A stretch of 64,000 nucleotides of DNA from Lysinibacillus agricola (GTDB taxonomy: Bacteria; Bacillota; Bacilli; Bacillales_A; Planococcaceae). The position numbers were made by a program, and so were the translations under genes. The notes below the pieces were generated by a model that was given only the letters and a program-made list of their open reading frames with translations, was not told the DNA's origin and did not search any database. Of this stretch, positions 1 through 64,000 are shown piece after piece. Position 1 is the stretch's first letter, and each line of letters begins with the position of its first letter. Location: NCBI RefSeq assembly GCF_016638705.1, contig NZ_CP067341.1:2855501-2919500 (forward strand), given 5' to 3'.

Positions 1-469
1 TAACTTGGTCAGAATTAGGATCATTTACTACTAATGAATTAAATGATTGCCGTGCAAACTGTTCAATATACTTTTGATCATAGCCAGTTAAGAGCTGCCA
101 TTTGCTCTCATCAGGCACTGAATACGGTTTTAAATAATTCGTTAAAACATCCGGCTTATCAACCTCAGGATCAACACTAAAAGCTACAATTTGATAGTCT
201 TCCACGCCTTTATCCTGAAGTGCCTTTTGTACCTCTGTCATGTTGAACGTCATTGGTGGACAAATGGAATTACAATTAGTAAAGATGAACATCGCTAACC
301 ATGGCTTACCTTTAAAATCATCAAGGCCAACCTGTTCATTTTTTTGATTTGTAACCGAAAAATCCTTTACCTCTATATTCATTTCTGGTTCAAATTTATA
401 ACTTCCGCAAGCAGTTAATATGCTACTTAATGCTAGTATCAAAACGAGCATGATACTTTTCTTTTTCAT
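1..469 (-). CDS. SCO1/SenC-family lipoprotein (3' end outside window)
   Basis: Reading leftward from an ATG at 469, the frame stays open to the window edge (about 156 residues seen). The product begins MKKKSIMLVL, has a hydrophobic signal and the lipobox LTAC (Cys21), so it should be an outward-facing membrane lipoprotein. A thioredoxin-like fold of the SCO1/SenC/YpmQ type follows, with the CxxxC copper/redox motif CNSICP after the FKGKPWLAMF strand, and the FSVDPEVDKPD segment. Members of this family deliver copper to the CuA centre of cytochrome oxidase or act in thiol redox control; that role is inferred. The conserved C-terminal His would lie beyond the window. The gene stands apart, with about 590 bases to the next gene, which is divergent. 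Confidence 0.88.
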   Translation of the reverse strand, partial: MKKKSIMLVLILALSSILTACGSYKFEPEMNIEVKDFSVTNQKNEQVGLDDFKGKPWLAMFIFTNCNSICPPMTFNMTEVQKALQDKGVEDYQIVAFSVDPEVDKPDVLTNYLKPYSVPDESKWQLLTGYDQKYIEQFARQSFNSLVVNDPNSDQV

Positions 470-7527: not shown

Positions 7528-8275
7528 GTAGCCCTCTCCCCTTCACAACTAGCTTTTCCAATACTCGAATACCGCTAAATAATAGTAAACTTAAAAATAT
7601 AATGGCAAAAATCGCTACAAACACACGATCTGTTCGAAATGAAGATTGTGCCAATGTCATATAGACACCTATCCCCTTTTTCGCTCCTAGCCATTCAGCA
7701 ATAACAGCCCCCATAACGCTATAGGTTGCCGCAATCTTAATGCCTGAAAAAATCGCTGGATACGCATAGGGCCATTCAAGCTTCCAAAATGTTTGTGCTT
7801 TCGTTGCACCAATCATCTTAAAATAATGCTTCAGCTCAGGTGAGGTTTGACGAAAGCCATCCATTGCCGAAATAACAATGGGGAAAAAGCACACGAGACA
7901 AATAATAATAAGCTTTGGCAATAAACCAAACCCAAACCAGATGATTAATAACGGTGCTAGGACGAGCACAGGGACATTCTGTGACATAATGAGAATAGGA
8001 TAAAATAGCTCCCGAATAAACGTAAAACGATGTAATAACACGGCAACCGTTAGCCCACACAATATCCCAATGGCAAGGCCTAGAAGTGCTAATTGAACAG
8101 TTGCTAAAGCATGCGGCACAAACGTGTCATACGATTGAAAGCCCTCCATCAAAATGGCACTTGGCGCGGGCAATAGCCAATGTGGAACGTCTGCAAAGCG
8201 GACAATTAGTTCCCATATGAATAAGAGGAAGGCGATAAAAAATATCGTCCTTCCTTGTTTTATTGCTTGCTTCAT
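7505..8275 (-). CDS. thiX: ABC transporter permease, thiamine precursor import
   Basis: A 256-residue inner-membrane permease of the BPD_transp_1 (NitT/TauT/ThiX) type with about six helices and the EAA-loop region around ATKAQTFWKLEWPYAYPAIF. The ATG at 8275 overlaps the preceding stop (TGATG); a GTG one codon upstream is also possible. It sits between the thiamine-binding protein gene and thiZ in a gap-free operon. Confidence 0.88.
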   Translation of the reverse strand: MKQAIKQGRTIFFIAFLLFIWELIVRFADVPHWLLPAPSAILMEGFQSYDTFVPHALATVQLALLGLAIGILCGLTVAVLLHRFTFIRELFYPILIMSQNVPVLVLAPLLIIWFGFGLLPKLIIICLVCFFPIVISAMDGFRQTSPELKHYFKMIGATKAQTFWKLEWPYAYPAIFSGIKIAATYSVMGAVIAEWLGAKKGIGVYMTLAQSSFRTDRVFVAIFAIIFLSLLLFSGIRVLEKLVVKGRGLHAKYSKH

Positions 8276-8565
8276 CACTGATATTTTTCCGTTAAGGTTC
8301 CCATTGTAATACCAGTTGGCTGATATAAAATTTTCACTTGCGTAATCACATTAATAGCACCAAGCTCAATCATTTTGTCATTCATTTTTTCAATGATTAG
8401 TAGCAAAGTCGATAGTTCACCTTCCATTGTTGTTTCTAGTGGGTGAACTTCATATTTCACCCCTGATGCATCAATAACCGCAATCGCTGCATCGACAAAT
8501 GGGATCACATCTTCATATTTTTCAGTTTTCGGGATAATTTGTACACTTATTAATGAGTTTGCCAT
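8275..8565 (-). CDS. Thiamine-binding MTH1187/YkoF-like protein
   Basis: A 96-residue cytoplasmic protein of the DUF77/MTH1187 (thiamine_BP) family. The pattern is SVQIIPKTEKYEDVIPFVDAAI then VKYEVHPLETTMEGELSTL, with a ferredoxin-like fold expected. Relatives such as YkoF bind thiamine or its pyrimidine moiety. The ATG at 8565 lies one base after the thiY stop, with AAGGAGAC inside the end of thiY as ribosome-binding site. The location, second in a TPP-riboswitch operon beside an importer, fits intracellular capture or sensing of the imported ligand; this is inferred. Confidence 0.82.
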   Translation of the reverse strand: MANSLISVQIIPKTEKYEDVIPFVDAAIAVIDASGVKYEVHPLETTMEGELSTLLLIIEKMNDKMIELGAINVITQVKILYQPTGITMGTLTEKYQ

Positions 8566-8566
8566 A

Positions 8567-9562
8567 TTACTTTGTCTCCTTTTTTGGTAAAAAGTCATTT
8601 GTAAATGCTTGTTCTGCGTTAAATTCGCCCTCTAAAACTTTGTTGCTTTCCATCCATTTCGCGTAGTTTTCCCAAACAGTAAGTTTTTGCTCGCCCCATT
8701 GAGGAGCGTCATCTTGATACTTATCTGCTAGCCACTCCTGACCTTTATGCACAAGGTCTTTATCTAAATCAGGTACCGCTTCTAGTAAAATATCAGCTGC
8801 CTCACTTGGGTGATTTATCGCATATTCATAGCCCTTTGCTGCAGCAGCGACAAATGCTTTGACTGTCTTAGGATCATCCTTAATCATTTTTTCGTTTGTA
8901 GCAAGTACAGGTGTGTAATAATCTAACAGATCACTATAATCTGTTAAATAAAGCATGTTCAGCTTTTCGCCACGAAGTTCTGCTTCAATACCTGTCACTG
9001 CATAATAAATCCACGCAAAATCAATATCTTTTTTCATCATTGTGAAGAAATCGATATCGCCTGCATTGACGATATCTAACTTATTAATATCCGCATTTTC
9101 TGTTTGCATAAGTGATTGTAGTACTGCTTGTTCAAGCGGTGCACCCCAGCCACCGTATGTTTTACCTTCAAAATCCTTAGGTGACGTAATGCCTTTTGAT
9201 GCAATGGATGCGAAGCCAGAAGTATTATGTTGAATAATCGCTGCGATCGATACTAAAGGTACATCTTGCACACGTGCCTGTGTAATCCCTTCCTGATAGC
9301 TTACACCAAACTGAGCCTTACCAGACGCCACAAGCTGATCTGCACCTGCTTCACCAGGTAATAAAATATCAACATCTAAGCCCTGTTCCTTAAAGTAGCC
9401 AAGTTTTTTCGCTACATATAAACCTGTGTGATTTGTGTTCGGTGTCCAGTCAAGAACTACCGAGACTTTTGTTAATTCCTTAGTATCCTTTTTATCCTCC
9501 TTTTCACTACAGCCCACTAATGTTAAAAGCGCAGCCAACAGGATCAATAACCATTTTTTCAT
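8567..9562 (-). CDS. thiY: ABC transporter substrate-binding lipoprotein (NMT1/THI5-like)
   Basis: A 331-residue lipoprotein with the signal MKKWLLILLAALLTLVGC; Cys18 is the lipidation site. The mature part is an NMT1/THI5-like binding domain starting VSVVLDWTPNTNHTGLYVAK, the hallmark of ThiY and yeast Thi5-related proteins that bind pyrimidine thiamine precursors. It is the first gene of the TPP-riboswitch operon and presumably the most translated. The leader of about 275 bases upstream holds riboswitch, terminator and promoter. Pyrimidine-precursor specificity is inferred from family and regulation. Confidence 0.9.
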   Translation of the reverse strand: MKKWLLILLAALLTLVGCSEKEDKKDTKELTKVSVVLDWTPNTNHTGLYVAKKLGYFKEQGLDVDILLPGEAGADQLVASGKAQFGVSYQEGITQARVQDVPLVSIAAIIQHNTSGFASIASKGITSPKDFEGKTYGGWGAPLEQAVLQSLMQTENADINKLDIVNAGDIDFFTMMKKDIDFAWIYYAVTGIEAELRGEKLNMLYLTDYSDLLDYYTPVLATNEKMIKDDPKTVKAFVAAAAKGYEYAINHPSEAADILLEAVPDLDKDLVHKGQEWLADKYQDDAPQWGEQKLTVWENYAKWMESNKVLEGEFNAEQAFTNDFLPKKETK

Positions 9563-11728: not shown

Positions 11729-14161
11729 TTATTTTTCTTCTTTTTTGGCCGTTAATACATGTGAAATAGCACCGTCTGTCGCGATATCCACTTTAAAGGA
11801 GCCGTTTGAATGGCGATCTGCTCGAGTCAATGCTTGGACATCAATAATCTCTTGCACACCTTTTTCTGTTTCGATGATCAGCTGTTCGTCATTAGTAGCC
11901 TTGACTACATCCACGATACGATGTGGATTCGCTTTTAACTCTGTTAACACTTTTAAGCCGCGTTTCGCACGACTAGTTAACTCTACCTCGGCTACATTCA
12001 TTTTCTTCACAGCGCCACGCTGTGTCACAATCACAACATATTCAGTATCACTAGGCTGTAAGACATTGACACCGACTAAGGCTTCTCCTTCTTTCAGTGT
12101 AATCCCTTTGACGCCGCCTGTTTTTACGCCTGTTACTGGTAATTCCTCCATTGGGAAGCGGATTGCATAGGCTGTATCTGTCGTTAATAATAATTCGGCT
12201 TCGTCTGTCACGAAATCCGCAAATATCATTTCATCGCCTGACTTGACATTCATCGTTTTAATTGGCTTCGAATAACGTGTTACGGCATAATCTGCTAGAG
12301 ATGAGCGTTTAATTTGGCCATCTTTTGTAGCCGTTAAGATATACGTATTCGCCTGTTCGAATGTCTCAAAACCGTACACAGCAATAATAGATTCATCTTC
12401 TCCAGTCGGCACAATACTTGAAATATGCTGACCAAGATCCTTCCAACGAATATCTGGTAGCTCATGGACAGGCTGATAAATATAATTGCCTCGATTAGTG
12501 AATAGCAGTAGATGATGCTGCGTATTTAAGTTTGCTTCATACAATAAATAATCGGAATCCTTCATCGCAAAATCCTGACCATTCGAGGCTGCATGCGAAC
12601 GTGTAGATGTACGCTTAATATAGCCATCCTTTGTGACAGTCACTACGACTTCTTCACTTGGGACAAGGACATCTAATGTAATTTTGATTTCTTCAATTTC
12701 TTGTTCAATTTTCGAACGACGTGGTTCTGTAAAGCGCTTTTTAATGTCGAGCAATTCTTGTTTAATGACACGTACAAGTTTTGCTTCACTATTAAGAATA
12801 CCTTCAAGCTTGGCAATGAGTTTATTTAATTCGTCCTGTTCATTGCGAAGCTCCGTTATATCTGTATTTGTTAAACGGTATAATTGCAGGCTAACAATTG
12901 CCTCTGATTGCACTTCTGTAAAGTCAAACTTAACCTGTAAATTCGTTTTCGCATCTCGTTTATCATTTGAAGAACGAATCGTTGCAATAACTTCATCTAA
13001 AATGGACAGCGCCTTAATCAAGCCTTCAACAATATGCGAACGATCTTTAGCCTTTTGCAAATCATAGATGGAGCGGTTCGTCACAACTTCCTTTTGATGG
13101 GCAATATAAGAATCCAGTAATAACGGTAATGTCATCATTGTCGGACGACGATTATAGATCGCAATCATATTAAAATTATAAGCTACTTGTAAATCAGTTG
13201 TTTTGAACAAGTAATATAAAATACCTTGCCCAGGAACATCTTTTTTCAACTCAATAACAACACGTAAGCCTGTACGATCCGATTCATCACGAATTTCCGC
13301 AATTCCTTCAAGTCGTTTATCCACACGCTGCTCATCAATTTTCTTTACTAGATTTGCTTTATTAACATCATACGGCAATTCCGTAATAACGATTTGCTCT
13401 TTTCCACCTTTAATTGGCTCAATGACTGCTTGAGCACGGACAATGATTTTGCCTCGTCCTGTCTCATACGCTTTTTTAATGCCATCGACACCTTGAATAA
13501 TACCACCAGTTGGGAAATCAGGTCCTTTAATAACGGTCATTAATTCATCAACAGTGGTATTTGGGTTATCTAAGCGCATAAGAACACCGTCTAGCACCTC
13601 ATCTAGTGCGTGAGGAGGGATGTCTGTGGCATAACCAGCTGAAATACCTGTAGAGCCGTTTACTAGTAAATTTGGGAAACGAGCAGGTAAAACAGTTGGC
13701 TCCATATCCTGATCATCAAAGTTTGGCACAAATTCTACGGTTTCCTTACCAATATCTCGTAGCATCTCCGCTGCAATCGCAGAAAGTCTTGCCTCTGTAT
13801 AACGCATCGCTGCCGGTGGGTCACCATCAACAGAGCCATTATTACCATGCATTTCAATGAGCATATGGCGCGCCTTCCAATCCTGACTCATGCGGACCAT
13901 TGCTTCATATACCGAGCTATCACCATGCGGATGATAGTTACCAATTACATTACCGACTGTTTTTGCTGATTTACGAAATGGTTTTTCGTTCGTATTGCCC
14001 TCTGTAAACATCGCATATAAAATACGTCGTTGCACAGGCTTAAGACCGTCACGTGCATCAGGCAACGCGCGGTCTTGAATAATATATTTACTATAGCGAC
14101 CAAAGCGGTCACCCATTACTTCTTCTAAAGGTAAATCTTGAAACTTTTCCGTACTACTCAT
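11729..14161 (-). CDS. parC: DNA topoisomerase IV subunit A
   Basis: An 810-residue type IIA topoisomerase A subunit: winged-helix/tower breakage-reunion domain, then a C-terminal beta-pinwheel. The catalytic tyrosine is Tyr121 in [11 protein letters not shown]. The quinolone-resistance region reads [12 protein letters not shown]; Ser82 and Glu86 correspond to Ser80/Glu84 of Staphylococcus GrlA and are the sensitive-type residues. It unlinks replicated chromosomes together with ParE. It is called ParC rather than GyrA because it sits behind parE, near plsY, in the conserved Bacillus order. The start overlaps the parE stop by four bases (ATGA). Confidence 0.96.
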
Positions 14162-62054: not shown

Positions 62055-62383
62055 TTACATTAATATTATCTTTTTCAATAAGCAATACTTATGACCTTGG
62101 TTTGTAGCCAAATGTATTTAATTTTTATGGGTGCATAACATCAAGGTTTTACAAATCGGAGATTTTTATACCTTCCTATTTAAATGTATTTAAATGTATT
62201 TAACTGGGGCGTTTTTTGGGGCTCTTTCTGGGGCGTACGTAGTTTTTTAAAAATAGTGCCCCACCTTATAAAATAGTATTTTTATAATAATAGTTCGGAC
62301 AGGTACGTTATATAGTAGAAATCTTAACAAAGAAAATAATTTACAACAACTAGTATTTTTTTATTGTTAATCAGGTCTCAAAA
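62055..62383. other. Intergenic stretch with repeated GGGGC blocks
   Basis: No gene is supported. ATTTAAATGT is repeated near 62180-62200, then TGGGGCG, TTGGGGCT and CTGGGGCG (62205-62235). In one plus frame these give NWGVFWGSFWGVRS. This could be the decayed 3' end of an integrase-like gene or an attachment region at the border of the AT-rich operon to the right. Confidence 0.4.
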
Positions 62384-62422
62384 AAAGTCACTCATTTAAA
62401 TAATAAAAAAATGAGTGACTTT
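62384..62422 (-). terminator. Terminator of the nuclease operon
   Basis: AAAGTCACTCATTT/AAATGAGTGACTTT with a T run on the minus strand, about 25 bases past the stop of the second gene. Confidence 0.85.
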
Positions 62423-62444: not shown

Positions 62445-62885
62445 CTAACTCAGTACATCTGCAAGATGAATATTTTGATCAATTTTCAAAGTTATATTGT
62501 AATCTTTCCAAAATGCATCATTTTCATTATTAGCAATTATTTTACCAAGCTTTAATGATTCTTTAACTTCATTTCTAAAATTCCCCAACCCTAAGTCCTT
62601 GTATCTATTTAATCTAGGTGGCAACCTCTCAACATTTGATAAGTTAATTAAAAACGAATCCGGTATAAAATTTTCATAACTGTTTTTTCTAAGTTCTGTT
62701 ATTATTCCATCTTCAATTCGTATTGTGATAAGAAAGTCTTCATAAAAAGTAATACTTAATTCGAAGTAATCTTTCTTTAAAAGGAATTTATTGTTGACCA
62801 TTCTTTTAATCGTTTGTTCAATACTCTTTATGAATATTTTTTCATAATCAGCTACTACTGAGGAACGTATAAGATAATCCATCAT
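62445..62885 (-). CDS. Hypothetical protein, partner of the FokI-like nuclease gene
   Basis: A 146-residue soluble protein starting MMDYLIRSSVVADYEKIFIK, with alternating beta-rich parts (YFELSITFYEDFLITIRIED) and a C terminus DQNIHLADVLS. No family recognised. Its ATG directly follows the stop of the nuclease-like gene (TGAATG), with AGAGGGG inside the previous gene, so the two are translationally coupled and probably work together, for example as a target-recognition subunit or an inhibitor. The region looks AT-rich relative to acnA. Confidence 0.7.
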   Translation of the reverse strand: MMDYLIRSSVVADYEKIFIKSIEQTIKRMVNNKFLLKKDYFELSITFYEDFLITIRIEDGIITELRKNSYENFIPDSFLINLSNVERLPPRLNRYKDLGLGNFRNEVKESLKLGKIIANNENDAFWKDYNITLKIDQNIHLADVLS

Positions 62886-63995
62886 TCATCCCCTCTTTTT
62901 AAGTTTTTTATCAATATCCTTAGTTACCTTCACAGTATCCAATTCCGAATAATCAGCAAGATCTTTGTCGAGTGCTTGTTCCATAACTTCTTTTATATCC
63001 TCAGTACTAATCACTAATTTATCAGTTATAAGTACTTTGAATAATTCTTCCATAAATATATTTCTTGAATTATTAAGTTGTTGATAATGTTTTCTATATT
63101 CTGAGTGTAAAAAAGTTAACACTTCGATAGGTAAGAAGATTGGTCTTGTATGATTATTCTCAGGAAGCTTTTTGTAAAAATAATCTGCCATAGTCTCATA
63201 ATTGTTAGTGTTAAAGTTATTAGAAATAAATATATGTGCACTAAGCTGTTTAGTATTACTGAATTTCGTAATGTAATTTATTTGATTTAGCATTTCAACA
63301 TAATCATAAGCCTTTCTCTGCTCACTTTTACCTAAGTCATATCCATCAGAAGTTTTATTTAATTTACAGTCATACGAAAAAACATATTGTTTTTTTTGTT
63401 CTTCAGCTCCTTGTACTGTATACGTCAAAGCAAAAATCCCTTCAGGCACTTCTTTTCCTGACATTTTTTTACCCCATTTTTCAGCATTTGGAAAAATATC
63501 TTTTATAATATTAAACACATCATCTTCAAAATCTCCTGGCGAATATTTGTCCCCAATTGATTCTGGCTCCGGTAAATTTACTAATATATCAAATGATTTA
63601 CTTGCAACGCTTGATAAATATGATTTTGTACGATGTTTTATAGACTCATAAATCTGTCCAAAGAAATCCTTTGGTTCTTGCATGTTATAAACACTACCGA
63701 AACTTATTGGGAAAATACAATTATTGTTATATTTATCTAAATATTTCTCAAGAACACCAACAAAAACTATTACTGTAGGGGTTAAAGTACGATTTATTTT
63801 TTCAAGTACGCTGTTTGAAATTGCTCCTTGCTGTACAAGAATTTGTAAAGATTCGTTTGTTTGTTTATTATCTAAATTAATAAATTTATATTTATTTTTA
63901 TTATATTTTTTTTCTGTATCTTTATTTAATTCCCACTCTGTCTTTTCACAAAATGAAGTAGCAAGCTTCTTTACATATGCTCTAATTGTATCCAA
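62886..63995 (-). CDS. Probable PD-(D/E)XK nuclease with FokI-like signature (5' end uncertain)
   Basis: A protein of about 369 residues. The C-terminal half has the order of a PD-(D/E)XK core: Glu157 in a helix (FEDDVFNIIKDIF), Pro184-Glu185-Gly186, and after a strand Asp209-Cys210-Lys211 (SYDCKLNK), followed by DLGKSEQRKAYDYVEMLNQ. From memory this lines up with the FokI cleavage domain (KPDGAIY ... VDTKAYSGGYNLPIGQADEM). The N-terminal half (1-150) is unrecognised and could bind DNA. The likely first codon TTG at 63995 is five bases from the window edge and the frame is open beyond it, so the true start may lie outside. Confidence 0.65.
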   Translation of the reverse strand: MDTIRAYVKKLATSFCEKTEWELNKDTEKKYNKNKYKFINLDNKQTNESLQILVQQGAISNSVLEKINRTLTPTVIVFVGVLEKYLDKYNNNCIFPISFGSVYNMQEPKDFFGQIYESIKHRTKSYLSSVASKSFDILVNLPEPESIGDKYSPGDFEDDVFNIIKDIFPNAEKWGKKMSGKEVPEGIFALTYTVQGAEEQKKQYVFSYDCKLNKTSDGYDLGKSEQRKAYDYVEMLNQINYITKFSNTKQLSAHIFISNNFNTNNYETMADYFYKKLPENNHTRPIFLPIEVLTFLHSEYRKHYQQLNNSRNIFMEELFKVLITDKLVISTEDIKEVMEQALDKDLADYSELDTVKVTKDIDKKLKKRG

Positions 63996-64000
63996 TGAAA

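Follow-up and report, generated by a model that had tools for sequence, protein, structure and literature searches.

We analysed a 64,000-nucleotide stretch of Lysinibacillus agricola DNA (the window; positions 2855501–2919500 of a single-contig genome of 5.29 Mb) and found at its edge two adjoining minus-strand genes, the larger of which is strongly supported to encode a FokI-like PD-(D/E)XK nuclease. The computations show the nuclease fold and conserved active site of the large protein, the linkage of its gene to that of a small partner, the location of the pair and its relatives in mobile elements and defence islands, and a LexA-type box upstream of the large gene. A defence function is likely from this context, and we give a probability of roughly 50% to the reading that the two genes, carried by a prophage, act as an anti-phage (anti-invader) pair built on a DNA nuclease and combining a clamp, FokI-like cutting and LexA/SOS-controlled expression.

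Nuclease domain of the large protein

The large protein contains E652, P679-E680-G681 and D704-C705-K706 in the acidic-acidic-lysine arrangement of the FokI active site, and all of these residues were invariant in an alignment of 31 sequences including the query (A1). In two further alignments, E652, E/D680, G681, D704 and K706 were kept in 39 of 39 and 29 of 29 sequences, the former count coming from 40 rows, one of which is an N-terminal half without the nuclease region. Residue 680 is Asp in the archaeal-type proteins. The predicted structure of this part has the fold of the FokI cleavage domain, and the Pfam, NCBIfam and PHROGs scans gave no confident match of the nuclease part to a non-nuclease family. 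An earlier note, made from the window alone, had proposed a FokI-like nuclease from Glu157, Pro-Glu-Gly (184–186) and Asp-Cys-Lys (209–211), which are the residues named above in the numbering of a partial open reading frame (ORF). The invariant residues and the FokI-like fold bear this proposal out, and Glu185, Asp209 and Lys211 of that numbering are conserved among the homologues rather than lost.

62445..62885, minus strand: small partner gene, 146 amino acids (aa), or 145 aa from the second ATG
62886..64000, minus strand: 3' part of the large gene, whose ORF is cut by the window edge and which runs on outside
63363..63527, minus strand: codons of the catalytic core from E652 to K706 (E652, P679-E680-G681, D704-C705-K706)

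Neither protein had a convincing match in Pfam, NCBIfam, PHROGs or PADLOC. The Pfam family PF09254 was not matched by the window's own large protein and was matched by 3 of 31 homologues at E ≤0.01 (best 0.002). A single-sequence comparison with a FokI-like protein was not significant (E 0.11), with the motifs in the right register, and the best match of the family profile to the sequences of solved structures had an E value of 0.57. PADLOC 2.0.0 (2023) returned no family for the full 864-aa and 146-aa proteins at E ≤0.01, and none at E ≤1 for the window part of the large protein and the small protein. The predicted layout of the large protein is as follows.

Residues ~1–137: helical N-terminus
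Residues ~138–270, perhaps to ~425: RdgC/CENP-N-like region, from the predicted fold
Residues 456–479: zinc ribbon
Residues ~497–616: putative degenerate nuclease-like domain
Residues ~646–800: FokI-like nuclease, followed by C-terminal helices

C461, in the second cysteine column of the zinc ribbon, was invariant in the 31-sequence alignment and shifted in the other alignments. A function like that of HypA was rejected, the weak match (E 0.008) being limited to the zinc ribbon. The archaeal-type homologue P0054 bears the source name predicted RNA-binding Zn-ribbon protein (DUF1610), which we take to reflect the zinc ribbon only.

Two-gene unit and prophage setting

The two minus-strand ORFs described in the earlier note behind acnA both exist; the large one is the 3' 43% of its gene and not a complete gene. 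The full gene reaches the window-equivalent position 65480 (L002:2887–5481, minus strand). Its product has 864 aa if translation starts at a GTG that follows a ribosome-binding-site-like AAAGGG, or 866 aa from an upstream TTG. The TTG of the window ORF was rejected as the true start because the reading frame stays open across the window edge. Four features outside the window had for that reason been missed, namely the N-terminal half, the zinc ribbon, the prophage and the LexA-type box; inspection past position 64000, as the note had suggested, revealed the rest of the large gene and prophage genes. Between the two ORFs there is nothing but the TGA of the large gene, directly followed by ATGATG, and translational coupling is therefore plausible. 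The pair is as AT-rich as had been noticed: its guanine-plus-cytosine (GC) content was 27.8% against 36.8% for the window, and none of 122 other 1,556-bp windows (range 31.7–42.8%) was as low. The full operon had a GC content of 28.2% against 36.5% in the rest of the prophage.

A profile search of the 2.5 kb downstream of each large gene found the small partner in 14 of the 19 bacterial loci, with E values from 1.5e-68 to 6.2e-10; the profile contains 8 of these 14 sequences, the other six not having been put in as such. In the same 2.5 kb it was not found in L008, L011, L012, L015 and L035, a 40-aa frame in L011 at E 0.022 being left uncounted, nor in three archaeal loci. L014 has a diverged copy (E 3.6e-11), and the five loci without the small gene thus group together as a single clade (94/98, not starred) in a tree that left out L019 because of its broken large frame. 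Within the genus, the small gene was present in 2 of 32 genomes, the identical two that have the large gene, and all three small-gene matches in viral contigs were in records also containing the large gene. These distributions support a conserved two-gene unit.

By hydropathy the small protein is soluble, its 19-aa maximum being 0.74 in comparison with 2.39 for lambda RexB. It is predicted to be mixed alpha/beta in a confident model (predicted local distance difference test, pLDDT, 93.4), for which no convincing fold match was found in the PDB. Its best PHROGs match (E 0.015) was taken as noise. The suggestion that it is a specificity, immunity or regulatory partner thus gained no backing from a fold match, nor from the clade and the three archaeal loci in which it was not found. 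In L019 (9995–12594) the large gene is split into several short frames and the small gene is open, which could reflect decay or an error-rich record. In L035, a 361-aa gene without a PADLOC match occupies the downstream spot used by the small partner elsewhere.

The following features lie on the acnA side of the pair.

62078..62109: perfect 32-bp attachment-site repeat at the acnA-side prophage end
62381..62422, minus strand: terminator-like (Rho-independent) inverted repeat with a T run 3' of the small gene, from the sequence

An identical second copy of the 32-bp repeat is found at genome position 2969353, 51,775 bp away, next to an integrase-like gene (named by reading). The two repeats and the integrase-like gene mark the ends of a prophage, and the pair therefore lies inside it, behind acnA because the prophage ends there. 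Reading of the genes upstream of the pair gave an endolysin (GH25 type), a holin and phage tail genes. The pair thus sits at the prophage edge, between the lysis genes and the attachment (att) site beside acnA, in the manner of prophage cargo (a moron). The large gene recurs with 100% identity in an IMG/VR proviral record, and tblastn gave no match of the large protein in 50,697 phage records, from which records near the window's genome may be left out.

The same prophage carries a ShosA/PsyrA-like gene (G000:C1:2952807–2953886; L031:17807–18886, minus strand; PADLOC E 2.8e-72). Two genes on the same strand lie beside it (2953902–2955119 and 2955146–2955646, the latter reading as HAD phosphatase-like), and the three are perhaps a second defence unit. 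A C5 cytosine methyltransferase-like gene (G000:C1:2947387–2948939; L031:12387–13939, minus strand; PADLOC MTase_II match) is found next to a ParB-like gene (by reading), separated from the large gene by about 26 kb, and could mark the prophage's own DNA.

N-terminal half and upstream LexA-type box

The predicted structure of the N-terminal half of the large protein fits the RdgC/RexA/CENP-N-L fold group, and RdgC gave the sole PDB matches below E 0.001. RexA was absent among the PDB matches listed, which proves nothing. A DNA clamp is plausible for this modelled half, and we infer that the large protein may bind DNA and dimerise. On the sequence level, the RdgC family PF04381 did not match the full large protein in a Pfam scan up to E 5, and profile comparison with RdgC was not significant, with a score of 20.1 (1 of 100 shuffles higher) or 19.25 (3 of 60 higher). 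Comparison with RexA scored 14.2, with no detectable sequence similarity; the published RdgC–RexA pair was likewise undetected. The profile register with RdgC aligned 228–271 with 125–169 and the structural register 144..268 with 1..166, an agreement that we regard as a hint only. RdgC itself is held by none of 21 genomes of the lineage.

In L002, L003, L004, L019 and L033 the large gene has the sequence GAACN4GTTC 98–125 bp upstream of its start, and the other 14 of 19 loci lack it there. This sequence, called the Cheo box, forms the core of the Gram-positive LexA consensus (PMC2248561). In the window's genome it lies 122 bp upstream of the start, between TTGAAA and TAATAT (17 bp apart), where it would be a LexA operator in the promoter of an SOS-regulon gene. 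When the 200-bp upstream regions were shuffled by dinucleotide, 0.02 of 19 loci were expected to carry the box, and five were reached in 0 of 200,000 simulated draws. The raw site density (44 in 605,099 bp, taking in overlapping loci and the five box-bearing loci themselves) predicts about 0.3 loci, far below five. The five loci are related and not independent; their two subgroups share little else upstream in the alignment. We infer LexA control from this putative site. The Amphibacillus cookii copy (L003) carries the box yet has no obvious prophage around it, and lies, by reading, between an rRNA-methyltransferase-like gene (8084–8818) and an rpsD-like gene (13281–13883).

Relatives and proposed function

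The family is rare: within the order 5 of 261 genomes have it, in a sample of the class 3 of 398 and in a sample of the phylum 1 of 398, the own genome being included in each count. Members occur in Bacilli and haloarchaea and, among the other Bacillota, in at least Gracilibacter (L008). Ten plasmid records matched the large protein, all haloarchaeal and in the C-terminal part only. On a plasmid of Haloferax larsenii (L028:4655–7158), the fused protein of Bacilli is split into two adjacent genes, one for each half. On a plasmid of the halophilic archaeon DL31 (L029:1519–6924), an AAA_5 ATPase, a McrC-like gene (named by reading, no PADLOC match) and a FokI-like nuclease gene follow one another on the same strand and are perhaps a joint unit.

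Five of the 19 distinct bacterial loci had a prophage or viral setting, namely the window's own, L004/L017, L013/L018 and L019 (in viral contigs) and L033 (by reading of phage genes upstream). By reading, the pair is also preceded by an endolysin-like gene in L004, L019 and L033 and by tail-fibre-like genes in L013. The other 14 loci had no obvious prophage. We scanned 93 of the 147 neighbouring proteins from these 14 loci; the remaining 54, excluded manually, comprised 8 small partners and further proteins, most of them more distant or very long. Those scanned (93) matched 346 PADLOC families at 1e-10, with type I methyltransferase and specificity subunits at the top (5–6 proteins each), and Pfam gave 5 N6_Mtase, 5 Methylase_S and 4 HSDR_N matches. 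As a control, 42 window proteins outside the pair, a small sample from one region, matched 3 PADLOC families. Type I methyltransferases lay near relatives of the pair in L005, L009, L015, L034 and L036, and we take them to belong to type I systems. A type I restriction endonuclease (L009), a type IV-type restriction enzyme (L005), an effector endonuclease (L034), GajA (L011) and ShosA/PsyrA (L010) were also nearby. In total, 7 of the 14 loci had a restriction or defence gene recognised by PADLOC nearby, from anti-phage systems such as Gabija, Shos and type I restriction–modification, and one more had Tn7-like genes; in L003, L006, L007, L008, L012 and L014 no neighbouring protein was examined singly. 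In the Tn7-like case (L035:6370–17999), the nuclease gene adjoins a gene for TniQ (PADLOC), which is TnsD in Pfam, and TnsC-, TnsB- and TnsA-like genes (by reading), with two further proteins without a match; it is possibly Tn7-like cargo.

The earlier note had called for such a look at other genomes and had proposed an undescribed defence or restriction module. The defence-island and mobile-element context agrees with defence; classical restriction is not supported, as the unit has no methyltransferase gene. FokI has its own methyltransferases, unlike the pair, next to which no methyltransferase gene was found, and a dedicated type II restriction–modification system was rejected on this ground. 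The FokI DNA-binding module is of the winged-helix type (PMC10853773). In contrast to FokI, Nt.BspD6I and the small subunit of R.BspD6I, the large protein has a predicted RdgC/CENP-N-like N-terminus and a zinc ribbon. RdgC homologues form ring-shaped dimers with non-specific DNA binding, and lambda RexA has the RdgC/IML3/CHL4 fold (PMC11077077). RdgC resembles the large protein in the predicted fold of the N-terminal half, but Escherichia coli RdgC (303 aa) is too short to include the nuclease part. RexA/RexB is likewise a prophage-borne two-gene unit, and the N-terminal half resembles the RexA fold group; however, RexA (279 aa) has no room for the nuclease part, and RexB is strongly hydrophobic, which the small partner is not. 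CENP-N/CENP-L (Chl4/Iml3) are eukaryotic inner-kinetochore proteins, to which the large protein had no Pfam sequence match. We found no publication describing the pair in the open-licence PMC literature, and we rate it as a probable nuclease-based prophage and island defence whose architecture is undescribed in the literature and libraries covered.

In the proposed mechanism, the RdgC/RexA/CENP-N-type clamp would grip double-stranded DNA without sequence specificity, probably as a dimer, and the FokI-like domain would cut when a pair of such domains comes together on the DNA. Between these two parts, the zinc ribbon and the degenerate nuclease-like domain may set the geometry or read a DNA feature, and the small coupled protein may regulate or license the nuclease. 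For the clade to which this prophage belongs, LexA would hold expression and the SOS response release it, so that the nuclease would appear upon DNA damage or invader replication. The rule separating self from non-self and the role of the small protein are conjectural parts of this scheme.

The best of the other explanations, though an improbable one, is an abortive-infection or toxin–antitoxin pair, in which the triggered nuclease damages the cell's own DNA and the small protein is the antidote. The tight coupling with a small co-inherited partner, the LexA-type box in the promoter and carriage by a temperate phage are in its favour; against it speaks that in a whole clade and three archaeal loci the 2.5 kb downstream of the nuclease gene contain no recognisable partner. 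Modification-dependent (type IV-like) restriction, in which the middle domains would read modified DNA and the FokI-like domain cut beside it, is somewhat less probable still: no base-reading domain was recognised, the matches to AspBHI and MspJI covered about residues 630–802 only, which is the shared nuclease fold, and the prophage, with its C5 methyltransferase-like gene, may itself have methylated DNA. A nuclease for recombination or repair, induced by SOS and aiding prophage excision, replication or host-DNA degradation would suit the RdgC-like predicted fold, the LexA-type box and the site between lysis genes and att, but is quite unlikely given that 14 of 19 loci are not obviously prophage, that 8 of these 14 adjoin restriction, defence or Tn7-like genes, and that the distribution is patchy.

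If the anti-invader nuclease reading is right, the pair represents a defence family unnamed in the libraries searched, in which a well-known cutting domain is joined to the clamp fold of recombination, phage-exclusion and kinetochore proteins. It would connect RexA-type prophage exclusion with direct DNA cleavage in a way that can be tested, and would provide a naturally occurring FokI-type nuclease whose DNA-gripping module is of another kind. A wider and more doubtful view is that a bacterial and archaeal nuclease family keeps a ring- or horseshoe-shaped RdgC/RexA/CENP-N-L clamp permanently armed with a FokI domain, destroys DNA independently of sequence by sensing topology or damage, and is switched on by the SOS response in temperate phages. 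Were this true, Rex prophage exclusion, RdgC and the inner-kinetochore CENP-N/L would share one DNA-gripping fold used for immunity, and a source of this fold in prokaryotic mobile elements would be suggested.
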